Of a DNA stretch of 43,977 bases, positions 14,025-43,977 are shown piece by piece; positions within the stretch are counted from its first letter, which is position 1, and each line of letters starts with the position of its first letter. The stretch is from a virus. The notes below the pieces were generated by a model. That model ran no database searches and was not told the DNA's origin. It saw only the letters and a program-made list of their open reading frames with translations. Location of the stretch: the IMG/VR virus record IMGVR_UViG_3300046454_000739, positions 1-43,977 of that record; one strand, 5' to 3'. Both the position numbers and the translations under genes were made by a program.

Positions 14025-14786
14025 CTAGCGAGTCACTCCCCAAACCGGGCCGTTATACGATTGGCAGTAACATTGCAGTCCCATAGGAGTACCAAACCCT
14101 ATGCCGCAAGCTCCAATCGGGGTTGCGCAAACGCTAGCAGGGGGAGGTGGTGGTGGGGCAGGTAGTGGAGAAGGGGCGGGAATAGGGCCTTGGGCTACCT
14201 GATTCTGCCAGGCTTCAAAGTTGTTTCCAGCTGCGTAGGCCTCATCCTCGACGCTGTTCCAACTGCGCAAATAACGGATTGCGAAATCTCGTACTCCCCA
14301 GTTATTGAACTGCTGCACATGCTTCAGCTCATGGGCCCAAAGCTTGCTATTTCCATAAGCGTCATTAGCATTTTTGAATACGATCACATTTATCAACGTT
14401 ACCGCTTGTGCGTCACCGTATTGAATAGAGAGGTTCGCCAGATTGAGGACTCCCGGGTCTCCAACTTTAAACCTAACATTGTCCATGAGACCGTCAGGGT
14501 AGAAGCCGCGAAGGCTTTGGCGAATTTGAGGAGGTATGGGGTCTGAACCATTGCTAGCGTTGTTTCGTGACTCACGAAACCATTGATCCAATGCAGGGGC
14601 TGCAGCTTGCGCCTGAGCTTCCAGTCGCATGCGGTCAATTTCACGTCCTGCATTATCAGCTTCGCGACCTACGTTGCGAACGATACGATCGGGATGAGTG
14701 ATGTCACCAATTGGGTCCCAAGCGGCAGCATTAAATGATGTAGAACCTACCAACGCTAACAGCGCCGAAGTGAGCACGGTCTTCAT
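14025..14786 (-). CDS. Secreted DUF4157-like HExxH protein, lysogenic cargo
   Basis: 253 residues. A signal peptide is clear (KTVLTSALLALVGSTSFNAAA, cleavage near residue 22). A zinc-protease motif HELKHVQQF sits at 152-160, the form seen in DUF4157-type domains; upstream helices (IVRNVGREADNAGREIDRMR) and QIRQSLRGFYPDGLMDNVRF match the family's usual approach. The C-terminus has a proline-rich linker (PAPSPLPAPPPPPPA) and a four-Cys tail (CATPIGAC...QCYCQ). AGGAG precedes the ATG at 14786. It runs against the late genes and so is probably expressed from its own promoter in the lysogen. Periplasmic or secreted peptidase activity is inference. Confidence 0.72.
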   Translation of the reverse strand: MKTVLTSALLALVGSTSFNAAAWDPIGDITHPDRIVRNVGREADNAGREIDRMRLEAQAQAAAPALDQWFRESRNNASNGSDPIPPQIRQSLRGFYPDGLMDNVRFKVGDPGVLNLANLSIQYGDAQAVTLINVIVFKNANDAYGNSKLWAHELKHVQQFNNWGVRDFAIRYLRSWNSVEDEAYAAGNNFEAWQNQVAQGPIPAPSPLPAPPPPPPASVCATPIGACGIGFGTPMGLQCYCQSYNGPVWGVTR

Positions 14787-22639: not shown

Positions 22640-23143
22640 ATGACTCTCATCATCGAGGACGGTACCGGCAAGCCTGACGCCGAGAGCTACGCATCCGCCG
22701 AAGACCTGGCCATGTACGCCGTGAAGTTCGGTGTGACCATCCCGGCGGAAGTGCCAGCACAGGAAGCGCTACTGCGTCGGGCCGCGCTGGCAATGGACGG
22801 CATGACGTGGAAGGGGCGAAAGTCCAACAGCGAGCAGGCCTTGTCCTGGCCGCGCCGAGGCGTTGAGCTGGACTACGAGATCAAGCCTGACAACTACCTG
22901 CCGGCGCGGATCCAGTACGGCCAGATGGCGCTGGCTGCCGAGATCCACACCGACGATATCGACCCGGTCGATCAGCGTCAGGGGGCGGTAATTCGCGAGC
23001 GAGTCGAAGGCGCGGTTGATGTTGAATACGCCCCGATCAGCAACAAAAGCGGCAGGCTATTGCCGGCCGCACCAGATCGCCCAAGCCGAACCCAGTTCGC
23101 CGACTACCTGGCCAAACGAGGCCTGTTTGCCGTGAGGGCCTGA
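22640..23143 (+). CDS. Head-tail connector, DnaT-like phage family
   Basis: 167 residues. The N-terminus (IEDGTGKPDAESYASAEDLA), the DGMTWKGRKSNSEQALSWPR segment and VELDYEIKPDNYLPARIQYG are characteristic of the phage family named putative DnaT-like ssDNA-binding protein, which sits in the gp6-like head-tail adaptor position. Given its place after the capsid gene, an adaptor ring below the portal is the likely role rather than replication. Confidence 0.75.
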   Translation: MTLIIEDGTGKPDAESYASAEDLAMYAVKFGVTIPAEVPAQEALLRRAALAMDGMTWKGRKSNSEQALSWPRRGVELDYEIKPDNYLPARIQYGQMALAAEIHTDDIDPVDQRQGAVIRERVEGAVDVEYAPISNKSGRLLPAAPDRPSRTQFADYLAKRGLFAVRA

Positions 23144-23145
23144 CA

Positions 23146-23517
23146 ATGAGCGCGTTCTACGACCGCACGGCTGCTACCGCTCTGCGGTTGATAACGCAGT
23201 TCGGCCAGCCGGTGACCATCAGCAAGACGGAGCCGGGCGAGTATGACCCGGAGACGGGCGGCGAGGCGCCGGGCGCCACCATTGAGCAGACTGCCCAGGG
23301 CGTCCTGCTCGACTTCACCGGCCAAGAATTCCAAAACAACAGCCTCATCAAGCAGGGCGACAAAAAATTGAAGATCGCCGCGCAGGGTTTGGCCTGGGTG
23401 CCGGGCCTGCTCGACAAGGTGGTCGCCCAGGGCCGTACCTGGTCAATTGTCCCGCCGCTGAAAGAGGTCAATCCCGCCGGAACGCCGATCCTGTATGAGC
23501 TGCAGGTGCGATCGTGA
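23146..23517 (+). CDS. Head closure / head-tail joining protein
   Basis: 123 residues, beta-rich: TALRLITQFGQPVTISKTEP, GVLLDFTGQEFQNNSLIKQG, then GRTWSIVPPLKEVNPAGTPI and a terminal LYELQVRS strand. This matches the phage head-closure (gp16/ FII-like) fold found between the adaptor and gp10-like genes. It begins two bases after the previous stop and overlaps the next GTG. Confidence 0.75.
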   Translation: MSAFYDRTAATALRLITQFGQPVTISKTEPGEYDPETGGEAPGATIEQTAQGVLLDFTGQEFQNNSLIKQGDKKLKIAAQGLAWVPGLLDKVVAQGRTWSIVPPLKEVNPAGTPILYELQVRS

Positions 23518-24110
23518 GCCGTGCAGGCGCCGGTCAGTCCGGGAGTTTTGCCCTAAGCCTGGCCGAGTTTGCCGCCCAGGCCAGCGAAGCCATCGACGCC
23601 AGTGTGCGCGAGATCATCATCGAGGTCGGCAGCAGCCTGATCCGTATGTCTCCCGTGGGTAACCCGGAGATCTGGGCGCAGAACGCTGTAGCGACCCAGT
23701 ACAACAAGGCCGTTGAAGACCACAACAGCTCGCTGCGCAGCGATCCGGCCAACCTGACCAAAGGCGGCAGGCTCAAGAAAGGTCGCAAGCTCAACGACGG
23801 CATGGACATCAAGGCGCCAGAGGGATACGTAGGCGGCCGGTTCCGTGCGAACTGGCACATTTCCCTCGGTGTGGTCGAGAGCGTCACGTTCGACGAGGTT
23901 GACCCTAGTGGCACCGAGACCGTAGCCGCCCTGGTCGCCGCGATGAGTGATTTCACCGCCGGCCAGATCGCTTACATCATCAACAACTTGTCCTACGCGA
24001 TTCCGCTGGAGTTTGGTCATTCGACCCAGGCCCCCGGCGGCATGGTCAGGGTAACCGTGGCTCGCTTCCAGCAGATCGTGCAGGAGGCCATCAGGAACAA
24101 TCAGGTATGA
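23514..24110 (+). CDS. HK97 gp10-like tail completion protein
   Basis: 198 residues starting at a GTG that overlaps the previous stop (GTGA). Contains SEAIDASVREIIIEVGSSLI, RMSPVGNPEIW, then GGRFRANWHISLGVVESV and NNLSYAIPLEFGHSTQAPGG, the P.G.....LR.NW and E.G.s...p.GM pattern of gp10/ minor tail completion proteins. It joins head and tail. The end overlaps the next ATG. Confidence 0.82.
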   Translation: MSRAGAGQSGSFALSLAEFAAQASEAIDASVREIIIEVGSSLIRMSPVGNPEIWAQNAVATQYNKAVEDHNSSLRSDPANLTKGGRLKKGRKLNDGMDIKAPEGYVGGRFRANWHISLGVVESVTFDEVDPSGTETVAALVAAMSDFTAGQIAYIINNLSYAIPLEFGHSTQAPGGMVRVTVARFQQIVQEAIRNNQV

Positions 24111-24535
24111 GTCACGCACGCGCCCGTCAGGCCATCGAAACGAAGCTGGCCGCATGGTCGGCTGCGCGCCCAATACGAGTGGCCTACTCGAGTCAGCCAT
24201 TTACACCGGGTCCATCTGAAACCTATCTGCGGGCCTTCCAGCTACCAGCCAGCACCACCTGCCGTTATCTCGGCGGGGACGCCTACGAGTACACCGGCGT
24301 CTATCAGATCAGCATCGTCTGTCCATCTGCCCAGGCCATGGCGACCGCAGAGACGCTCGTTGAAGAGCTGACACGGCTCTTTCGCGTGGACACGCCACTG
24401 GCCCGCAACGGGTTCGATGGACTCATCACTGAGCCGGTAGATCAGGGGCCAACCATCACAGAGTCGGCGACCTACACGGTCCCGGCCAGCTTCACCTACG
24501 CAGGTGTCGCAGACCAACCGCCCGCTGGGGCATAA
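24107..24535 (+). CDS. Tail terminator, DUF4128 family
   Basis: 142 residues. RQAIETKLAAWSAARPIRVA, YLRAFQLPASTTCRYLGGDA and YEYTGVYQISIVCPSAQAMA match the DUF4128 (lambda gpU-like) tail terminator proteins that cap the tail tube and fix its end. Its place between gp10-like and tail tube genes agrees. Confidence 0.82.
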   Translation: MSHARARQAIETKLAAWSAARPIRVAYSSQPFTPGPSETYLRAFQLPASTTCRYLGGDAYEYTGVYQISIVCPSAQAMATAETLVEELTRLFRVDTPLARNGFDGLITEPVDQGPTITESATYTVPASFTYAGVADQPPAGA

Positions 24536-24574
24536 CCTACCGCCGTCAGGCGGGCATTCAAGAGGAAACACACC

Positions 24575-25051
24575 ATGGCCGCACGCTTCCCGCTGCCGAA
24601 CGGCGCTGTGCTGGAGATCGCCAGCGTTATGGGATCCGCCGTCGCTTTCACCGCTCTGACCAATGCGAAGCCGCCGGTAGCTGCTTCTGTAGGGCACAGC
24701 ATCGAAAATGGCGACGTTTTGCTGATCAACTCTGGCTGGGCGCTGATCAATGACCGCGCAGTAAAGGCGTCCGGCGTTACCGCCGATGCATTTGCGTTGG
24801 CCGGTCTCAATACAACCAACACTGACAAGTTCACTGTCGGCGCAGGTTCTGGCTCTGTGATCCCGGTATCCGGATGGACGCAAATCTCGAAAGTGCACAG
24901 GAAAACGTCGTTCAGCTGGGGAATGCGCTGTCCTCGGGAGACTGGGGAAGTGGCGTACGCGCGGTCGCGCAATTGGGAGCCGGTGCAGGCGCGGGGGCGG
25001 CTGGACTGCTCGCCATTCTCGGCCCGCTCGCGCTGGCCACCGCTGCCGTAG
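24575..25051 (+). pseudogene. Tail tube protein, C-terminal part lost
   Basis: The first about 106 residues are typical of a siphovirus tail tube protein: AARFPLPNGAVLEIASVMGS, DVLLINSGWALINDRAVKAS, DKFTVGAGSGSVIPVSGWTQ, ending ISK. From about base 24,890 the frame leaves the family and reads SFSWGMRCPRETGEVAYARS, which is the tape-measure gene in another frame, until a stop at 25051. Tail tube proteins are usually about 240 residues, so the second half is missing. The start has AGAGGAAA upstream and looks intact. A deletion that joined this gene to the tape-measure gene explains the structure. Confidence 0.78.
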
Positions 25052-27423
25052 GCGGTCTGGCGTACGCTTTCTACAAGGGGAGCGAGGAACAGGACAGCTA
25101 CAACAAAGCGTTGATCCTGACCGGTAACTACGCCGGTGTGAGCGCCGGGCAGCTGGGCGACATGGCGCGTCAGGTCAGCGCAACCGTTGGCACCACTGGC
25201 CAAGCCGCAGCCGTGCTCGCTCTGCTGGCCGACAATGGCAAGATCGCCGGCGAGAGTTTCACCAGCATCACTCAAGCCGCTGTTTCGATGCAGGAAGCAA
25301 CTGGCAAGGCCGTAAGCGAGACAGTGGCGGAGTTCGCCAAGCTCGCCGACGATCCGGTCAAGGCGTCTGCAGCGCTGAATGAGCAGTACCACTACCTGAC
25401 CGCGTCGGTTTACTCGCAGATCGCCGCACTGGAGAAGCAGGGCGACCATGCCGGCGCCGTGAAACTGGCGACAGAGCAGTACGCCGATGCAATCAACGAG
25501 CGTACCCCGCGCATTCTGGAAAATCTGAGTTTCTGGGAGAAAGGTTACAACGCCGTTGCGCGTGCTGCGGACAACTTGAAGAACCTTGGCCGGCCGGATA
25601 TCAACGCCGATATCGAGCAGGCTCGGCGCAATCTGGAATCGGCCCAATCTGGCAATGTTGGTCTGTTCCAGAACAAGCAGGAGATGATTGATCTCTACCA
25701 GAATCGTCTCAACATGCTTGAGGACCAGAAGGCTGCGGAAGCCGATATCGCCAAATGGGAAGGGGAACAGGCAAAAGCCCAGGGCGAAGCTGTTACGGCC
25801 ATGGGCAAGATCGATGCACTCACCAAGTCTGCGTGGACGAATGAACAGAAGCGCACCGAGGCGATCAAGGAGTACAAGCGACAGCTCGAAGATATCCGCC
25901 AGGTCGCGCCCAACGACCCTCGCCTGAATCAGGCCGCAATCGACAAGAACCTGGCGAACATCAACGACCAATTCAAGGATCCGAAGGCTACCGGAACTCA
26001 GGTCGATTTGACCAGCTTCAACAATGCCAAGAACAACCTGACAGCCATCAGCGAAGAGTACAAAAACGCCCAGAAGGAACTGGACGCTGCGCAGAAGGCC
26101 GGGCTCGTTTCGCAAGTCGACTACGCCCTGAAACGCGAAGCGCTGATCGGAAACGAGCGCGATGAGGTGACTGCGGCCTACGAGGCGGAGATCGCCGCAC
26201 TGGAAGCCGCGAAGGCGAAAAAGACCACTTCTGCTGCGCAAAGCATTCAGCTCGACCAGAAGATCGCCGATGCGCGAGCCGGGATGGTCAAGGCGCAGAA
26301 AGAGGCGGACAGTCAGCTTGAGGTTCTGGCCACGAACGAGACCGGTCGCCTTGCTCGACAAGAGCGGTCGATCACGACCTACGTCCAAGCCTTGGCCCAG
26401 CAACAGAGGGCACTGGAATTGGCGGGGCAGCGCGCCGTTCTCGGCGTCGGCCAGGGCGATCGTCAGAACGCTCTCAACAACGAGCTGAACAGCCAGCAAG
26501 ACCGGTTCGCACAACAAGCGCTGGAACTCGCGAATCAGAAGTCAGATCCATCGCGGAACATGTCGGAGGAAGAGTTCTCCCGCAAGTCGCAGGCGCTCGC
26601 AGACGCGAACAAGGCGGCTACTGACCAGATCCGGCAGAACTACGCGGATGTGGAAAAGGCGCAAGGTGATTGGACCAAAGGCGCGACATCGGCCTGGGCC
26701 AACTACCTGGACTCGGCGAGCAACATTGCCGGCCAGACGAAAACCCTGTTCGGCAACGCCTTCAGCTCGATGGAGGATGCGGTCGTCAACTTTGCCATGA
26801 CCGGGAAGCTATCGTTCGCCGACTTCACCAAGTCCATTCTGGCGGACATGGCGCGGATCGCGACCCGTCAGGCCAGTTCTGCGTTGCTGAGCAGCCTTGT
26901 CGGTGCTGCCACCAGTTACTTCACTGGCGGAAGCGGCGGTAACGGGCTGGCGGCTGGATCTGCTGGTGCAACGTCTTCGAATCTCGGCGCGTCCTCGGCT
27001 GGTTATTCCAGCAACTACTTCCCGCAGGCGCTCGGTCGTGCCTGGTCGTCGGGCGTACAGATGTTCGCAAACGGCGGCGCCTTCACCAACAGCATCGTCA
27101 GCGCACCGACCGCCTTCGGGATGGCCGGCGGCCGGGCAGGGGTCATGGGGGAGGCGGGGCCGGAGGCGATCATGCCGTTGACCCGGACTTCCAGCGGCAA
27201 GCTGGGTGTTCTTGCGGCCGGCGGTGGCTCCGGGACTGCGATCAGCATCAGCGCACCGGTCACGGTGGTGACAGAGGATCGCAGCTCAGAAGGCATGCAG
27301 ATTGACCAGCAAGCCCTGTCGAAAAACCTTCAAACACAGATGCGAGCCGTGGCGGAAAGAGTCGTGGCCGATTCTTGGCAGCCAGGCGGTGCAAGCTTCC
27401 GACGTGCAAATGGGAGGGCCTGA
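24874..27423 (+). pseudogene. Tape measure protein lacking its N-terminus
   Basis: Tape-measure proteins set tail length. The 849-residue frame starts at an ATG inside the tail tube gene with no ribosome site. GLAYAFYKGSEEQDSYNKAL, ILTGNYAGVSAGQLGDMARQ and LNEQYHYLTASVYSQIAALE match the TMP_2 region of lambda gpH-like proteins, where this block begins after about 110 residues; here it begins at about residue 55. Long charged coils follow, then an Ala/Gly-rich C-terminus with AGVMGEAGPEAIMPL, a typical tape-measure end. The N-terminal part and the chaperone genes G/T that normally precede it are absent. The 3' end overlaps gene M (TGATG) and is intact. Confidence 0.75.
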
Positions 27424-27761
27424 TGGCCATCGAGAAATTCACCTGGCCAACCGAGCGCGGGGAAACACCCGATATCACCTATCGGGTGCGCACCTCGAAG
27501 TTTGGCAACGGCTACGCACAGAACGTCGGCGACGGCCCGAACAACAAAGAGGACTCATACCCGGTTACCTGCGTCGGCCAGAAGGCCAAGGTGCAGCAGA
27601 TCATGGCGTTCCTCGATCGGCACGCCGGGGCAAAGGCGTTCCTCTGGACAACCCCGCTCGGCGAGCTCGGGCTATTCACCTGTAAAAATCCCGCTCCCAC
27701 ACCAATGGGCGGCGGGGTCTTCAAACTCACCGCCACTTTCGAGCGGGCATTCCAACCATAA
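27423..27761 (+). CDS. Minor tail protein M-like
   Basis: 112 residues: FTWPTERGETPDITYRVRTS, KFGNGYAQNVGDGPN and AFLDRHAGAKAFLWTTPLGE match lambda gpM/ phage minor tail family (Phage_min_tail). It belongs to the tail tip complex. The ATG overlaps the tape-measure stop (TGATG). Gene order M, L, K, I, J is as in lambda. Confidence 0.88.
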   Translation: MAIEKFTWPTERGETPDITYRVRTSKFGNGYAQNVGDGPNNKEDSYPVTCVGQKAKVQQIMAFLDRHAGAKAFLWTTPLGELGLFTCKNPAPTPMGGGVFKLTATFERAFQP

Positions 27762-27770
27762 GGGGCAATC

Positions 27771-28520
27771 ATGCCGCTGATCAGTGACATCCAGGTGCTT
27801 GAGCCTGGCAGCGAAGTGCTGCTCTTTGAGCTGGACGGCACGGACTACGGTGCGGACGTACTGCGCTTCCACGGGCACGCGATCCCCCATACGGCGGCCG
27901 AGCTGATCGCTGCCGGCGACAACGCGGACCAGCTGCCGGCGAAGGCGATCTACTGGCAAGGCAACGAGTACAGCGCCTGGCCGATGCAGATCGACGGCAT
28001 CGAGGCGAACGGTGACGGCACTGCCGTCCGACCCACACTTTCGGTCGGCAACGTCAATGGGCGCATCACCGCACTCTGTCTGGCGTTCGAGGATCTGCTC
28101 GAGTTCAAGCTGACGATGCGCCACACGCTGGGCAGCTACCTCGATGCAGCGAACTTCCCGGCCGGCAATCCAACGGCAGACCCAACCCAAGAGACGATCG
28201 AAGTCTGGTACATCGACCAGAAAACGAACGAGGACGGGGAAAGCGTCAGTTGGGAGCTCGCCAGCCCGGGCGACGTCGGCAACGAGTCGATTGGGCGTCA
28301 GGCCACGACGCTTTGCCACTGGTGCCTCACCGGCGGCTACCGTGGGCCGAACTGCGGCTACACCGGCCCGTACGTGACCAAGGATGGCGTCGTCACCGAT
28401 AACCCCGAGCTGGACGAGTGCGACGCCACACTGGGCAGGGGCTGCATTCCTCGATTCGGTGAGGGGAACCCGCTGCCGTTCGGTGGCTTCCCCGCCGTTT
28501 CACTGATCGCACGGAGCTGA
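27771..28520 (+). CDS. Minor tail protein L-like (Fe-S tail tip protein)
   Basis: 249 residues. The N-terminal half (DIQVLEPGSEVLLFELDGTD, SAWPMQIDGIEANGDGTA) and the cysteines in ATTLCHWCLTGGYRGPNCGY and LDECDATLGRGC match lambda gpL, whose C-terminal domain holds a 4Fe-4S cluster. It links the tail tip to the tube end. GGGGCAA-type purines precede the ATG. Confidence 0.9.
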   Translation: MPLISDIQVLEPGSEVLLFELDGTDYGADVLRFHGHAIPHTAAELIAAGDNADQLPAKAIYWQGNEYSAWPMQIDGIEANGDGTAVRPTLSVGNVNGRITALCLAFEDLLEFKLTMRHTLGSYLDAANFPAGNPTADPTQETIEVWYIDQKTNEDGESVSWELASPGDVGNESIGRQATTLCHWCLTGGYRGPNCGYTGPYVTKDGVVTDNPELDECDATLGRGCIPRFGEGNPLPFGGFPAVSLIARS

Positions 28521-29606: not shown

Positions 29607-30626
29607 ATGAGATACATAATTTATAATGTGACGCGCTCAGAGTTTCGCTTGGCTAAATTAATCCCTAGACTTAAGAAGTTTCCAGTTCAGCTCGATTCTG
29701 GAACTGCGTGGATACACCTAGAAGATGGTGATCTTGATAAAGGGCAAAAGGCAGCTTTAGGGGCGGGATTTAGAATTGCGACATTTAGTTATTTCAGGGA
29801 AGCGTACGAGCTGGCAAATCTCCTGAGGGTAAAATACCCAACTAGTAAGTTTATAGTCCCCGGTGCCTCGCCAAAAATCCTAAAATGGGCACTGCTGAGA
29901 TTGAATTGTAATGTTGTAAGTGTCGATGTAAGCGGTGTGGAACCGTATCGGGTCTCTGTTTTAACAGCGGCTAGCAAACTTGATAAGGGTGATAAGGTAA
30001 TTAAAGATGTAGGCCAAAGCTTTCATTTCAAGCTAGTGGCGCCCCAACCACAGTTTGTTGAATACCTGAAGCGTAAGGTACTGAAAGACCCACAAAGGTT
30101 GTTCGACACCATCGTTATTTTGGATTTTAATGACTCTGGTAGTGGTCTGTATGCGCTCAAAAGGGATACGGAAAGTCTGTTCAAGGATTTTGGCTTAAGA
30201 GTAAGTTATAATGGCGGGATGATAGTGCCTGAGGTTATTGCTGTTTCTATTGCCGATTCGCCGGAGCCCAGTGTAAATAATCCGACGGAAAAAGATGTAA
30301 TAAGGAAGCAAATGCGCGACCTGTACTTTAAGTCAATCGATGATTCTATTTCTCAGGGGCATAAGGCAGATTTTAAAAATTTTGGCGATGCGATGCAACT
30401 TGGACATCTGAAGGCTAGTATTGGAAGAAATGCTGAGAAGCGGGGGTATAGTAATCCCGAACACTGGCAAAGTCCTAAAGTTTTGACCGCTGGGAAGGCG
30501 CAGGAAAACTACCAATATAATAAAAAGCTTTATCAGTCAGCGTTTCAACTCGAAATTCCTAAGGAGTTGTACCAGTACATAATAGATGCAACTTTTGTTG
30601 GGGAGGGGCGACAAATCAATGACTAA
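29607..30626 (+). CDS. AT-rich cargo gene of unknown function (339 aa)
   Basis: Codon use is strikingly AT-rich (AAA, ATT, TTA, AGT) against GC-rich tail genes, a mark of separate origin. GGAG lies eight bases before the ATG. The protein is soluble and basic: an N-terminal domain with PVQLDSGTAWIHLEDGDL and YFREAYELANLLRVKYPTSK, a middle LFDTIVILDFNDSGSGLYAL strand-loop, and a helical C-terminal third (EKDVIRKQMRDLYFKSIDDS, AMQLGHLKASIGRNAEKRGY). No transmembrane span, signal peptide or catalytic motif that I recognise. Its location between K and I and lone, foreign character suggest a lysogen-expressed gene, possibly defence or exclusion; that is inference. Confidence 0.7.
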   Translation: MRYIIYNVTRSEFRLAKLIPRLKKFPVQLDSGTAWIHLEDGDLDKGQKAALGAGFRIATFSYFREAYELANLLRVKYPTSKFIVPGASPKILKWALLRLNCNVVSVDVSGVEPYRVSVLTAASKLDKGDKVIKDVGQSFHFKLVAPQPQFVEYLKRKVLKDPQRLFDTIVILDFNDSGSGLYALKRDTESLFKDFGLRVSYNGGMIVPEVIAVSIADSPEPSVNNPTEKDVIRKQMRDLYFKSIDDSISQGHKADFKNFGDAMQLGHLKASIGRNAEKRGYSNPEHWQSPKVLTAGKAQENYQYNKKLYQSAFQLEIPKELYQYIIDATFVGEGRQIND

Positions 30627-30832: not shown

Positions 30833-31231
30833 ATGAAATTGATCGTAGGAGCGCTGGCGGTAGCGCTGTTGGCGGGGTGTGCGACGTCGCCAGTTCCGTC
30901 CAGTGAAGCCGACCCGGTCCCATCGTCAAGATTGTTTGCGTTTCAAACCCCGGCGCATGGTGATTCGATACTCATTGTCACCCGGGATACGGGCTTTGTT
31001 GGCAGCGGCTGCAATACGACGGTGAGCATCGACGGTCGCCGGGCAGCAGAAATCGCCTCAGGCGAGACCGCGAAATTCCGCGTTGCTCCAGGTGAGCACA
31101 TTTTATCTGCTTCATCCTGCGGAAGCGGCCTGAAAGAAAGGGAAGCGAACATCAAAGCAGGAATCACCAAGAAATTCAGGATATCCATAGACTCAGCAAT
31201 GAGCATGGACTTATCACCCACCATGCAATGA
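30833..31231 (+). CDS. Outer-membrane-type lipoprotein, unknown
   Basis: 132 residues from the ATG at 30833, with AAAGGAG upstream. A lipoprotein signal is plain: KLIVGALAVALLAGC with lipobox LAGC, Cys16. The mature part has ATSPVPSSEADPVPSS as linker and a small beta domain (ILIVTRDTGFVGSGCNTTVS, KFRVAPGEHILSASSCGSG) with a probable disulfide. The residue after Cys is Ala, so sorting to the outer membrane is likely. Phage lipoproteins often block superinfection or receptor use; that role is only suggested here by its cargo position next to tail gene I. A terminator follows. Confidence 0.75.
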   Translation: MKLIVGALAVALLAGCATSPVPSSEADPVPSSRLFAFQTPAHGDSILIVTRDTGFVGSGCNTTVSIDGRRAAEIASGETAKFRVAPGEHILSASSCGSGLKEREANIKAGITKKFRISIDSAMSMDLSPTMQ

Positions 31232-31235
31232 CAGA

Positions 31236-31258
31236 AGCCGCCTTCGGGCGGTTTTTTA
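31236..31258 (+). terminator. Intrinsic terminator after the lipoprotein gene
   Basis: GCCGCC-TTC-GGGCGG hairpin followed by TTTTTT; the ribosome site of gene I follows within a few bases. Confidence 0.8.
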
Positions 31259-31275
31259 TGTCCGGAGAAAAAGCC

Positions 31276-31866
31276 TTGGCAGCCACGCTCAGTAATAACC
31301 CAGCCATGACCACCATTCTTCTTTCTGGCCCGCTCATCAAGCTGTTCGGCCGTGTTCACTATCGTGAGCTTGGCAGCAGATCCGTGGGCGAGGCCTTCAA
31401 GGCACTCAAGTGCACACTGGAAGGATTTGAGGCGGCGATCAAGGATCTTGAACGAAAGGGGATGCGTTTCGCGATTTTCAGGAATAGGAAAAACGTAGCT
31501 GAAAAAGATTTCGGCCTCGGTGGAACCCAAGAGATTCGCATCGTCCCGGTCATTTCTGGCAGCAAGCGGGCAGGCGTTCTTCAAACAATTATTGGTGCGG
31601 TTCTGGTAGTTGCCGGCTCGTACTTTGGCCAGCCCTGGGCCGTGCAATTGGGCGCTGGACTGGTAGCTGGTGGCGTCATTCAGATGCTCAGCCCTCAAGC
31701 TAAGGGTTTGAAGCAGAGCGCCTCCCCCGAAAACGCACCGTCCTACGCCTTCGGCAGCGCCAAGAACACTACGGCCAGCGGCAACCCGGTACCGATCTGC
31801 ATCGGCGAACGCCGGTGGGGTGGGATGATCATCTCGGCCTCGATTCTGGCCGAAGACAAAGTGTAA
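31276..31866 (+). CDS. Tail assembly protein I-like
   Basis: 196 residues from a TTG at 31276, chosen because GGAG stands just upstream in the same layout as the next gene; an ATG at 31306 (MTTILLSGPLIKLFG) is an alternative with no ribosome site. TILLSGPLIKLFGRVHYREL and VGEAFKALKCTLEGFEAAIK match lambda gpI; IVPVISGSKRAGVLQTIIGA and a hydrophobic AGSYFGQPWAVQLGAGLVAG follow, and the C-terminus ends SGNPVPICIGERRWGGMIIS, a family hallmark. It acts with K, L and J in tail tip assembly. Confidence 0.85.
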   Translation: MAATLSNNPAMTTILLSGPLIKLFGRVHYRELGSRSVGEAFKALKCTLEGFEAAIKDLERKGMRFAIFRNRKNVAEKDFGLGGTQEIRIVPVISGSKRAGVLQTIIGAVLVVAGSYFGQPWAVQLGAGLVAGGVIQMLSPQAKGLKQSASPENAPSYAFGSAKNTTASGNPVPICIGERRWGGMIISASILAEDKV

Positions 31867-31924: not shown

Positions 31925-34900
31925 ATGGGCGCAGCAGCACACATCGATATTCACGGCGAGAAAGGCGGCACCAGCAAGCCCAAGTCGCCGACCGAATCCA
32001 GCGACAGCCTGCGCTCGACCAACCTGGCAAAGCTGCTGATAGCCGTGGGCGAGGGCGAGTTCGACAGCATCCCGACCGATTACGACATCTACTTGGACAA
32101 CACACCGATCCGCGACGCCAGCGGCAACTACAACTTCCCGAACGTGAAGTGGGACTGGCGCCCGGGTTCAGTGGATCAGACCTTCATCCCGGGCATCCCG
32201 TCCGTGGAGAACGAGACCTCGCTGAACATTGAGCTGCGCAGCGATGCGCCTTGGGTTCGCTCGATCAGCAACACGCAGTTGTCGGCGGTGCGCATGCGCC
32301 TGGCGTGGCCTGCGCTGCAACGGTCGGACGATGAAGGCAATGTCGGCGGTTACCGGATCGAATATGCGATCGACGTGGCCACCGACGGCGGCGCGTATCA
32401 GCAGGTGCTGATGGACGCCGTCGACGGCAAGACCACCACGCGCTACGAGCGATCGCGCCGCATTGATCTACCGGACGCCACCACTGGCTGGCAGATCCGC
32501 GTGCGCCGCCTGACGCCGAACCAGAACACTAACAAAATCGCCGACACCATGCTGGTGGCCGGCTATACCGAAGTCATCGACGCCAAGCTGCGCTACCCGA
32601 ACACAGCGCTGCTCTACATCGAATTTGACGCAGAGCAGTTCACCAACATCCCAGCGGTGACCGTGAAGTGCAAGGCCCGCCGCTGGATGGTACCGAGCAA
32701 CTACGACCCGATCCAGCGCACCTATACCGGGACGTGGGACGGTTCAATGAAGTCGGCCTGGACCAATAACCCTGCGTGGATCACCTACGGCATCTGCACT
32801 GAAGACCGCTTCGGCTTGGGCAAGCGCATCAAGCCGTTCATGGTCGATAAGTGGGAGCTGTATCGGATTGCCCAATATTGCGACCAGCTGGTGCCGAACG
32901 GGCTTGGCGGTCAGGAGCCGCGCTTTCTATGCGATATGAACCTGCAGGGCAAGGCTGACGCCTGGTCGCTGCTGCGCGACATCTCGGCCATTTACCGAGG
33001 CATGACGTATTGGGCGCAGGGGCAGTTGGTGATGCAGGCCGACATGCCGCGCGCGCAGGACTTCGATTACGTCTTCACCCGGGCCAACGTGATCGACGGC
33101 AAATTCTCCTATGGCAGCGCCTCGGCGAAGACCCGGTACACCCGGGCGCTGGTCAGCTACGACAACCCGGCGAATAACTACGACACCGACGTCATTCCGT
33201 TCGCTGACCTGGATCTGCAACGCCGTTACGGCGACCGGCCGACCGAGCTGAGCGCCATCGGCTGCACCCGCGCTTCCGAGGCCCAGCGTCGCGGCAAGTG
33301 GGCGATCTTGAGCAACAACCAAGACCGCACCGTGTCGTTCAAGACCGGCATGGAGGGCGTGATTCCGCTGCCTGGTCACATCATCCCGGTTGCTGACTCG
33401 TTGCTGGCCGGTCGGGAAGTTGGCGGGCGGATCTCGTCAGCTGCTGGCCGCGTCGTTACGCTCGATCGCGACACCCAAGCCAAGGCTGGTGATCGGTTGA
33501 TCATCAACCTGCCGGGCGGCCGCGCCGAGGGCCGCACCGTGCAGAGCGTCAATGGCCGCGCCGTGACGGTGACTGTCGCATACAGCGAGCCACCGGTTGC
33601 GCAATTGCAATGGGCGCTCGACGCCGATGATTTGGCGATCCCGCTGTACCGTGTGCTGCGCACCAAGCGCACTACCGAGGGCGACTTCGAGATCAGCGCG
33701 CTGCAGTTCGAGCCGAGCAAGTTCGCGCACATCGACACCGGTGCTCGCCTTGAAGAGCGGCCAATCAGTGTGATTCCGATCACCGTCGTACCGGCGCCGG
33801 CGAGCGTGTCCCTCGCGTCGACGTCTTCGGTGGTCCAGGGCTTGGCCGTGGCCACCATGACGATCAGTTGGCCCGCCGTGGACGGCGCAGTCGGTTATGA
33901 CGTGGAGTGGCGCAAGGACAGCGGCAACTGGATCAAGGTGCAGCGCACCGGCATGACCAACGTGGACGTGGTCGGCATTTACGCTGGCGGCTACGTGGCC
34001 CGGGTGCGCGCGGTGAGTGCGTTCGACATCTCGTCGCAGTGGCGCAACTCGGTTCTGACCAACCTCAGTGGTAAGCAAGGATTGCCACCCGCATTGGCGT
34101 ATTTGAAAACGATCAGCAAAGTTTACGGCATTGGTCTGGAGTGGGGGTTTCCGCCTGGCGCGGAAGACACTCAGCGCACCGAGATCTGGAACAACAATAT
34201 CAACGATCTGGCTACCGCTGTGAAGTTGGCGGATTTCGCCTATCCGCAATCGAATCACGAAATGCAGAACATCGTGCCAGGCACCAGTCTGTTCTTCTGG
34301 GGGCGACTGGTGGATCGCATTGGCAACGTGGGGCCATGGTTCCCGGCAGTAAATGGTGTCAACGGGCAGGTGAGCATCGACCAGTCCGAGTACGAGCAGT
34401 ACTTCCTCGGGAAAATTCAAGAGTCAGCCTTGGGAGAGCAGCTTTTCAAAGAGATCGGCAAGATATCCGGCGACGGTGAAGGCTCGGTCAACGAACGGCT
34501 TGAACAGGCCAAGCAGGAACTGGAAGACCTGATCGGCGAAATCACCGATGCGATGGTCTACGACCCGGCGAAACCGAATGGGAAGGGCGAGGTGGTGCGA
34601 CTCGATGGTCGCCTGTTCTCGGCCATCAAGGCTGTTCCCGTTGATACGCCTCCGCCGAATGCCGAGTTCTGGTACGACATGGGCACGATTGCCGAAACCT
34701 CCAATGCAATGGCGCTGCAGATCCAGAAGCACACCGCCCAGATCGATACCATCGACGGCAAAGTCACGGCGCAAGCTTCGACGATGCAGGCGCTGCAAGC
34801 GGCCTGGCGGGAGGACGACGGCACGGGGGCAATGAATGAGGCCCTGAAGGCGTACCAGAGCACGGCAAGTATCGTGACGAATGAGAAAGTCATTGCAGAG

Positions 34901-35530
34901 GAGAAGCTGGCCTCGGCTACTCGTTACACCACGCTCAATGCGGCGGTAGGCAAGAACGCCGCCAACCTGACCTCCCTCGAGGAAGTGGTTGCCACTGACA
35001 AGCAGGCCACAGCTCAGAAAATCGAGACACTCACGGCAACAGCCAATGACGCTACGGCCAAGGCAGAGATCGCCAGTACGGCTGTTTCTGGCCTCAACGG
35101 TAAGGTGTCTGCGCTGACCACGATCAAGACATCTACCACTGTTGGTGGGCGGACGGTGATGGCAGGTTTGGCGATCGGCGTGGAAGGCGATACCCAGGAG
35201 TCGCAGATCCTCGCGTTTGCTCAGCGTTTCGCGATTCTGGATGAGGTCAGTGGTCAGATGATTGCACCGTTTGTTGTCCAGGGCGGCCAGGTGTTCATGA
35301 ACACGGCGATCATCAGTCAGGCCTTCATCAAGGAATTGGTACTCGGCATGACGTTGCGCTCTGCGGCGCTGAATAATCAGGGGCTGCCGTTGTTGGAGAT
35401 CAACATTCCTGCCGGGACGTTTACGCTTCGCGGCCAGTCTGACAGCGGATACACCCTGCTGAACAACAACGGCATATACGTCTACGACCTGAACTACATC
35501 GAGCGCGCCGCGCTCGGGAAGATGACGTGA
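31925..35530 (+). CDS. Tail tip attachment protein J-like (host specificity)
   Basis: 1201 residues, the length of lambda gpJ (1132) and relatives. The N-terminal half shows DSIPTDYDIYLDNTPIRDAS, SGDGTW-type early J motifs, PAVTVKCKARRWMVPSNYDP and SAWTNNPAWITYGICTEDRF; fibronectin-like beta domains lie near 640-720 (ATMTISWPAVDGAVGYDVEW); a helical stalk and coil occupy about 860-1080; the C-terminal 130 residues would form the receptor-binding tip. GGAGG precedes the ATG. It decides which cell-surface molecule the phage binds. Confidence 0.92.
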   Translation: MGAAAHIDIHGEKGGTSKPKSPTESSDSLRSTNLAKLLIAVGEGEFDSIPTDYDIYLDNTPIRDASGNYNFPNVKWDWRPGSVDQTFIPGIPSVENETSLNIELRSDAPWVRSISNTQLSAVRMRLAWPALQRSDDEGNVGGYRIEYAIDVATDGGAYQQVLMDAVDGKTTTRYERSRRIDLPDATTGWQIRVRRLTPNQNTNKIADTMLVAGYTEVIDAKLRYPNTALLYIEFDAEQFTNIPAVTVKCKARRWMVPSNYDPIQRTYTGTWDGSMKSAWTNNPAWITYGICTEDRFGLGKRIKPFMVDKWELYRIAQYCDQLVPNGLGGQEPRFLCDMNLQGKADAWSLLRDISAIYRGMTYWAQGQLVMQADMPRAQDFDYVFTRANVIDGKFSYGSASAKTRYTRALVSYDNPANNYDTDVIPFADLDLQRRYGDRPTELSAIGCTRASEAQRRGKWAILSNNQDRTVSFKTGMEGVIPLPGHIIPVADSLLAGREVGGRISSAAGRVVTLDRDTQAKAGDRLIINLPGGRAEGRTVQSVNGRAVTVTVAYSEPPVAQLQWALDADDLAIPLYRVLRTKRTTEGDFEISALQFEPSKFAHIDTGARLEERPISVIPITVVPAPASVSLASTSSVVQGLAVATMTISWPAVDGAVGYDVEWRKDSGNWIKVQRTGMTNVDVVGIYAGGYVARVRAVSAFDISSQWRNSVLTNLSGKQGLPPALAYLKTISKVYGIGLEWGFPPGAEDTQRTEIWNNNINDLATAVKLADFAYPQSNHEMQNIVPGTSLFFWGRLVDRIGNVGPWFPAVNGVNGQVSIDQSEYEQYFLGKIQESALGEQLFKEIGKISGDGEGSVNERLEQAKQELEDLIGEITDAMVYDPAKPNGKGEVVRLDGRLFSAIKAVPVDTPPPNAEFWYDMGTIAETSNAMALQIQKHTAQIDTIDGKVTAQASTMQALQAAWREDDGTGAMNEALKAYQSTASIVTNEKVIAEEKLASATRYTTLNAAVGKNAANLTSLEEVVATDKQATAQKIETLTATANDATAKAEIASTAVSGLNGKVSALTTIKTSTTVGGRTVMAGLAIGVEGDTQESQILAFAQRFAILDEVSGQMIAPFVVQGGQVFMNTAIISQAFIKELVLGMTLRSAALNNQGLPLLEINIPAGTFTLRGQSDSGYTLLNNNGIYVYDLNYIERAALGKMT

Positions 35531-38248: not shown

Positions 38249-38276
38249 AACCCGCCACCGAGCGGGTATTTTTTTG
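38249..38276 (+). terminator. Intrinsic terminator after the fibre genes
   Basis: ACCCGC-CACCGA-GCGGGT hairpin followed by ATTTTTTT. Confidence 0.8.
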
Positions 38277-38290
38277 CCTGGAGAAAAGTG

Positions 38291-38470
38291 ATGATTGCAA
38301 CCGATAAAGACCGCGACATCCTTGCTCGCACCTTGTGGGGCGAGGCCCGGGGCGAAGGTACGGCCGGACAGATCGGCGCGGCATGGACACCGGCTATGAG
38401 GCCTGTGGGACTCTCTTCCAACTGGGACGATTACAGGAAGCCTACCGCATCCCGAGTGAAGCCCTCTTGA
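38291..38470 (+). pseudogene. Broken endolysin copy (N-terminal fragment)
   Basis: The first 31 residues (IATDKDRDILARTLWGEARG, EGTAGQIGAAW) match the start of the intact endolysin at 39707, including the catalytic-region WGEARGE, and the leader GAGAAAAGTG is the same. The DNA copies differ at many third positions, so this is not a recent duplication but a related endolysin from another phage. After that the frame departs into an unrelated 28-residue tail. It lies directly upstream of the acyltransferase gene and marks a recombination junction. It should not yield active enzyme. Confidence 0.8.
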
Positions 38471-39666: not shown

Positions 39667-39689
39667 GACCCGCTCCGGCGGGTTTTTTA
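39667..39689 (+). terminator. Intrinsic terminator before the endolysin
   Basis: ACCCGC-TCCG-GCGGGT hairpin followed by TTTTT, 18 bases before the endolysin start. Confidence 0.85.
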
Positions 39690-39706
39690 TTGTCTGGAGA
39701 AAAGTG

Positions 39707-40129
39707 ATGACTGCAACCGAAAAAGAACGCGACATCCTCGCACGTACGCTGTGGGGCGAGGCTCGCGGCGAGGGAACGGCGGGCCAAGTGGCTGTGGCCT
39801 GGGCGATCCGCAACCGTGTGAATGACGGCAAGCCCAATTCGTGGTGGGGCGAGGGCTATGCCGGCGTGTGCCAGAAGCCGTACCAGTTCAGCTGCTGGAA
39901 CAAGACCGACCCGAACTATCAGTTCCTGATCGGCGTGAAGCAGATCCCGTTCCGCGAGCTGGCGCAATGCCGAATCGCTGCTGACCAGGTGATCGACGGC
40001 AAGGTGCCTGATCCAACCGGCGGCGCCACGCATTACTACGCAACCAGCATCAAGGCGCCGGCCTGGGCGGTGAAGGCGAAGCAGACCCTCAAGCTGGGTG
40101 GCCACGTCTTCTTCAAGGATGTGCCGTGA
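39707..40129 (+). CDS. Endolysin, SleB-type cell wall hydrolase
   Basis: 140 residues from the ATG at 39707 (GGAGAAAAGTG upstream). ILARTLWGEARGEGTAGQVA (10-29) holds the catalytic Glu of the SleB/ Hydrolase_2 family, with AWAIRNRVNDGKPNSWWGEG, AGVCQKPYQFSCWNKTDPNY and PTGGATHYYATSIKAPAWA, all family blocks. It cleaves peptidoglycan between sugar residues for lysis. No signal peptide, so it depends on the holin. It overlaps the Rz start (ATGATG region). Confidence 0.9.
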   Translation: MTATEKERDILARTLWGEARGEGTAGQVAVAWAIRNRVNDGKPNSWWGEGYAGVCQKPYQFSCWNKTDPNYQFLIGVKQIPFRELAQCRIAADQVIDGKVPDPTGGATHYYATSIKAPAWAVKAKQTLKLGGHVFFKDVP

Positions 40130-41868: not shown

Positions 41869-42467
41869 GAGCGGCTGCTTTCGGCCAAAAGCGGACATTC
41901 GTACCGCTAGTCAAATACACTGTCGCGACAATCGCATTCAAATTTGGTGCAAGTGTTCATCGGGAAAAAGGGAGGATTGATGAGTCTTGATCTGTGCTTG
42001 GAAGCTGATAGTACGCTCACAATTTTGACATTGAGCAATGCCCTTGAGAATGCTGGTGCTCGAAAAGTCGAGGTAACAGAAGATGGGCTATACGCTGAAT
42101 TTAGCTCAGGACTTAAATTACGTACCGATGACGCTTTCGGTGACCCCTCGATTTATGCTGAGAATACAATGGGTATCGACTTTCCTGTCGCTGTGCGTTG
42201 TACCATCAGAATTAAAGGGCCCGAACCAGAGGGAGAGTCGGCTATGGACGATTTGGAAAAAGTCGCCCAATCAATATCTCAGTCGTGTTCAGCCTTCTTT
42301 CTAGTTAGCTTTCAGTTCGAACAAACCATGTACTGGCGGGATGCGACAGGGTTACATCGTCCTTGAGGTCGGTGCCTGCGCGTCGTGCTACAGATATTTT
42401 TGAGTGGTGCTTTTCGGACAAAAGCGCCTTTAATTGATGGGCCGCAATTGGCCGAAAGCAGCCGCTC
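41869..42467. repeat. Perfect 20-bp inverted repeats flanking one gene
   Basis: GAGCGGCTGCTTTCGGCCAA at 41869-41888 and its exact reverse complement at 42448-42467 enclose 559 bases holding one gene (41980-42366). The sequence resembles a dispersed intergenic repeat seen in Pseudomonas (form close to CCGCTTTTGGCCGAWAGC); a diverged copy lies near 43474. It may be a repeat pair or the ends of a small cassette. Confidence 0.7.
41980..42366 (+). CDS. Hypothetical protein inside the inverted repeats (128 aa)
   Basis: ATG at 41980 with GGGAGG four bases upstream, preferred to an upstream in-frame ATG. The product is a soluble protein with DLCLEADSTLTILTLSNALE, EVTEDGLYAEFSSGLKLRTD, then VAVRCTIRIKGPEPEGESAM and a helical SFQFEQTMYWRD end. 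No membrane span or known motif. The flanking repeats may have moved it. Function unknown. Confidence 0.65.
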   Translation: MSLDLCLEADSTLTILTLSNALENAGARKVEVTEDGLYAEFSSGLKLRTDDAFGDPSIYAENTMGIDFPVAVRCTIRIKGPEPEGESAMDDLEKVAQSISQSCSAFFLVSFQFEQTMYWRDATGLHRP

Positions 42468-43909: not shown

Positions 43910-43977
43910 TGGCGGAGGCGATGGGATTCGAACTCATGGACCTGTTACAGTCGACGGTTTTCAAGACCGTTGCCTTA
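43910..43977 (-). tRNA. tRNA-Ser (UGA), 5' part cut by window
   Basis: On the minus strand the visible 3' part has an anticodon arm ACGGTC-TTGAAAACCGT with loop CTTGAAA, giving anticodon UGA, a variable arm, GTTCGAATCCC as T loop and acceptor ending GCCTCCG-CCA at 43912-43910. Long variable arm agrees with serine. tRNA-Ser genes are frequent phage integration sites; the 3' end points towards the prophage. Confidence 0.88.

Follow-up and report, generated by a model that had tools for sequence, protein, structure and literature searches.

The stretch of DNA analysed here (the window) is the whole of the virus record IMGVR_UViG_3300046454_000739 in IMG/VR, 43,977 bases with zero N. Its structural genes match those of lambda-like Pseudomonas prophages. 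Integration in a bacterial chromosome is indicated by a repressor gene and by an att-like end as in the relatives: the right end of the record falls inside the tRNA-Ser that forms the end of related prophages. The host flank lies outside the record, and the integration call rests on this att-like end and on the relatives found within host genomes. Judged by its genes and ends, the window is an integrated lambda-like Pseudomonas prophage, with the 3' part of the tRNA-Ser as its likely attachment site. The left end of the record is cut inside an early gene, and about 12 kb known from the relative G008 fall outside; further damage may lie in that part of the prophage. The features under discussion are collected in Table 1.

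Table 1. Features of the tail gene region and of the right end of the prophage (positions in the window)
Feature	Position	Strand	Basis
Tail completion / neck protein gene, intact	23514..24110	+	phrog_169; 198 aa, equal length in G001, G006 and G008
Tail terminator gene, intact	24107..24535	+	PF13554, phrog_179; 142 aa in window and relatives
Tail tube (major tail protein) gene, surviving 5' part, 106 of 219 codons	24575..24894	+	phrog_584 3-107/218, PF08813 1-56/165
Deletion junction	24894..24895	.	blastn of window against relatives breaks exactly here
Out-of-frame read-through of tube ORF into tape-measure DNA, 52 unrelated residues	24895..25051	+	Translation and DNA alignment
Truncated tape measure ORF; tape measure sequence confined to 24895-27423, preceded by 7 codons of tube DNA read in another frame	24874..27423	+	PF06791, PF09718, phrog_24 from profile position 298
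Minor tail protein M gene, first after tape measure, intact	27375..27761	+	PF05939, phrog_14; 128 aa in 5 of 6 relatives
Tail assembly protein I-like gene, open over full length	31228-31866	+	phrog_32 for 31228-31863; full-length matches in relatives
Central fibre J-like gene, open over full length	31925-35530	+	Full-length matches in relatives
3' part of tRNA-Ser, right end of prophage and record	43911..43977	-	Equals 3' part of tRNA-Ser(TGA), same end of relative G002, L085:795-882

The tube reading frame (24575-25051) encodes 158 residues, and family sequence ends at residue 106 with GWTQISK. Its matches to PHROG 584 and to the Pfam domain Phage_tail_3 stop near the middle of the first profile and at about one third of the second (Table 1); the intact tube protein of a relative (219 residues, L006:2079-2738) covers positions 3-215 of 218 and 1-163 of 165, and can be aligned with solved tail tube structures over residues 7-209. 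Profile matches and translation agree with a preliminary description of this DNA, in which the tube frame keeps its family sequence to GWTQISK and then runs out of frame through tape-measure DNA to 25051. An in-frame fusion protein of tube and tape measure is out, the two frames being out of register.

The tape measure reading frame encodes 849 residues and its ATG, at 24874, lies within the tube gene. The letters upstream of this ATG, TCTGTGATCCCGGTATCCGG, contain no Shine-Dalgarno-like sequence, and together with the translation they bear out the earlier view of a frame that opens in the tube gene without a ribosome site. All 80 viral-contig relatives match the frame from residue 8 only, i.e. 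from base 24,895. The intact tape measure of the same relative (L006:3479-6529) has 1,016 residues and matches phrog_24 from position 28; of these residues the N-terminal 174 are missing in the window. The truncation described before is thus real, but the loss had been put at 50-100 residues and is larger.

When positions 23001-28500 are aligned with the 80 viral contigs carrying the gene, collinearity ends at base 24,894 and resumes at 24,895, two points that stand about 1,600 bp apart in the relatives. Where both sides of the junction are matched closely over 300 bp (31 relatives), the intervening block measures 1,602 bp in 29 cases and 1,601 bp in the remaining 2. The junction is blunt: no base is common to both ends in any of the 31 (31/31) and zero bases are inserted. 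Lost with the block are the final 113 tube codons, the Phage_TAC_4 chaperone gene with the DUF1799 frame that overlaps it, and tape measure codons 1 to 174. In the relatives the first chaperone gene has a classical slippery site, GGGAAACTGA, at its end; the slippery site of the Phage_TAC_4 frame is GGGAAAC, to be compared with GGGAAAG in phage TP901-1 (PMC4493119). Neither chaperone is found by tblastn across the window, as had been proposed for the genes in the position of lambda G and GT. Queries with the block (tblastn and blastn) give chance matches only elsewhere in the window, which excludes its translocation within the window. No long direct repeat spans the junction within the window and the ends share 0 bases, so that a microhomology- or repeat-mediated deletion is excluded. 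A search for a new promoter or terminator at the junction found none. A single deletion, as suggested from the start, accounts for both broken frames and for the lost chaperone genes, since relatives with both arms keep the block continuous and the flanks collinear; only its size, estimated at about 1-1.5 kb, had to be revised to the measured 1,602 bp.

The compact arrangement is not shared by relatives. Every piece of the block could be sought in 79 relatives with both arms present, and all 79 keep the tube C-terminus, both chaperone frames and the tape measure N-terminus; the compact fused locus, which would have countered a deletion, occurs in none (0/79). In a few relatives whose tube genes are more distant, the block differs somewhat in length, in either direction, and is never absent. 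Loci that miss pieces of it start too near the gene or have no recognisable anchor. As an exact or degenerate pattern, the junction turned up in none of the other viral contigs searched, against at least 120 that contain the intact right arm. Among 399 Pseudomonas genomes, matches extend across the junction by a few bases at most, and where one prophage has both close arms their spacing is about 1.6 kb. Records very close to the window may be absent from the sequences covered by these searches. Plasmids yielded no copies.

Outside the junction, the structural genes are in good order. The terminase, portal, capsid, neck, terminator, M, L, K, I and J-like genes are full length when compared with six whole relatives, and the flanking structural genes are collinear with them. 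The expectation that the other tail genes are intact therefore holds for those common to the relatives. The relatives carry a complete lambda-like siphophage tail module in the order terminator, tube, G/GT with slippery site, tape measure, M, L, K, I, J; in the window this module lacks G/GT and has a truncated tube and tape measure. The surviving tape measure fragment shows 5 synonymous and 3 non-synonymous private codons among 842, and the non-synonymous share of its private changes is no larger than in relatives, although these counts are small. A general decay of the prophage is excluded: no other structural gene is shortened and private non-synonymous changes are not in excess, again with small counts. 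Because the surviving genes show no decay, the deletion is probably recent.

Several other loci deserve mention. Between the K-like and I-like tail genes, a 339-residue reading frame (29607-30626) matches neither a Pfam nor a PHROG family; as relatives differ at that place, it is probably a moron. Adjoining the late genes, a minus-strand frame (14025-14786) combines an eCIS core domain (PF13699) with a HELKH metalloprotease-like motif and has no PHROG match. A 125-nt direct repeat (81%; 38262-38386 and 39678-39802) lies on either side of an acyltransferase gene (PF01757, 38526-39644), possibly a surface-polysaccharide acetylase. In the relative G001 this gene is absent and its flanks are contiguous, so that it resembles a moron whose insertion next to the cell-wall hydrolase gene duplicated the 5' part of the latter. 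Near the tRNA-Ser end, the minus strand encodes a Fasciclin-domain protein (PF02469, 42796-43356) with a signal-peptide-like start, in a stretch missing at the corresponding place in the relative G002. Also near the prophage end, 26-nt inverted repeats (92%; 41869-41894 and 42442-42467) bound a 0.57-kb stretch that is perhaps a REP-like element.

A break in each of the tube and tape measure genes would explain the locus. The broken ends would then have been joined directly, without microhomology, and the simplest route would be Ku-type non-homologous end joining in the host. Ku (PF02735) is encoded in all ten Pseudomonas genomes with related prophages that were tested (10/10), which makes end joining a sufficient route. 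We infer this route of repair; by our estimate a blunt join would also arise by chance alone in roughly half of random deletions. Taken as a whole, the probable account is a recent 1,602-bp deletion in an otherwise ordinary lambda-like Pseudomonas prophage, closed by blunt end joining and leaving a tail-less phage. The deletion itself is seen by comparison with relatives, and we infer that the deleted form exists in the organism; that it is real we consider quite likely.

The main competitor is an assembly or library artefact, in which the two arms were wrongly joined and the prophage of the organism is intact. A single record shows the junction, which recurs in no independent sequence and was found nowhere else searched. 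Moreover, related prophages abound and are mosaic in structure, and the closest relatives of the left arm and of the right arm differ, as is possible for a chimaeric contig; the same difference is also expected for mosaic phages. On the other hand, assemblers based on k-mers depend on an overlap, which is also usual in amplification chimaeras. The ends have no base in common in any of the 31 close relatives, hence no k-mer overlap to mislead an assembler, and because of this lack of microhomology a k-mer assembly error is unlikely. The arms also stand in the right order and orientation, at sites 1.6 kb apart in relatives, which would be a rare outcome for a random ligation chimaera. An artefact is therefore unlikely, while keeping an appreciable share of our doubt.

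If the deletion is real, half of the tube protein is gone, along with both chaperones and the N-terminal part of the tape measure. Stop mutants of MTP or gpG in TP901-1, like a gpT mutant, give capsids, no tails and no infection (PMC4493119), and deletions in the N-terminal 154 residues of the tape measure abolish infection (PMC5099701). Because TP901-1 mutants of the corresponding genes lack tails, the prophage should make capsids but no tails. The induced phage would replicate, lyse its host and make filled capsids without tails; it would spread only with its host, or via tails from a related phage in the same cell. Having lost virion-essential genes that intact relatives keep (tube, chaperones, tape measure), the window is, as far as its sequence tells, an ordinary deletion-inactivated defective prophage.

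Such complementation leads to further readings. The prophage could be kept as a tail-less capsid donor that the tails of co-resident relatives regularly mobilise, a full-size tail-dependent satellite in the making, which we regard as very improbable. Also very improbable is an evolved satellite-like element that, like capsid-forming PICIs, would combine its own capsid genes with helper-phage tails. Its capsid and packaging genes are intact while tail genes are broken, and the capsids of tail-less TP901-1 mutants can be completed from elsewhere, added purified tails restoring transfer (PMC4493119). Against it, nearly the whole tail module is present at full length, one blunt event hits four adjacent genes only, the arrangement is not spread among relatives and the surviving genes bear no sign of age. 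Nothing in this analysis indicates an evolved dependence on helper tails. A functional compact lineage, with no separate chaperones, a shortened tape measure and a tube protein of half the usual size, finds a point in the tape measure frame that stays open through the junction from the ATG at 24874, but is scarcely tenable given that the retained tube part is only one third of the tube domain before the frame is lost, that no relative has the arrangement, that the tape measure start lacks a ribosome site and that the corresponding TP901-1 parts are essential (PMC4493119, PMC5099701).

A recent deletion thus remains the preferred reading, and it would provide a well-delimited example of a temperate phage turned defective by one end-joining-like tail deletion, with everything else intact. 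It also calls for caution: a virus record may seem to have its full set of genes and still be unable to form particles. The prophage would be a natural knock-out that closely related intact prophages could complement. Beyond these points the case matters little, this being an ordinary kind of prophage damage.

The closest known systems are the intact relatives, such as IMGVR_UViG_3300012097_000016 (the relative L006 used above, also G003) and the prophage of Pseudomonas sp. H1h (L100), which have the same gene order as the window. DNA identity with intact Pseudomonas prophages is about 87-94% over the tail module, and the tape measure fragment is up to 98% identical to intact relatives; these carry the 1,602-bp block with the tube C-terminus, G/T frames and tape measure N-terminus, whereas the window is without it. 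The TP901-1 mutants MTP::Ter, gpG::Ter and gpT::BamHI (PMC4493119) have lost the corresponding tail genes, as would the window; they are engineered and carry single-gene stop or slippery-site changes, whereas in the window one natural deletion would hit all of these genes and the tape measure N-terminus. Capsid-forming PICIs make their own capsids and use foreign tails, and the phage of the window would likewise need the tails of another phage. These satellites are small islands with capsid genes and no tail module; to our knowledge, they lack the module as a stable, spread trait. Unlike them, the window spans at least 44 kb, with the terminator, the remainder of the tape measure and M, L, K, I and J-like genes present, and holds a near-complete tail module with what appears to be one recent deletion.
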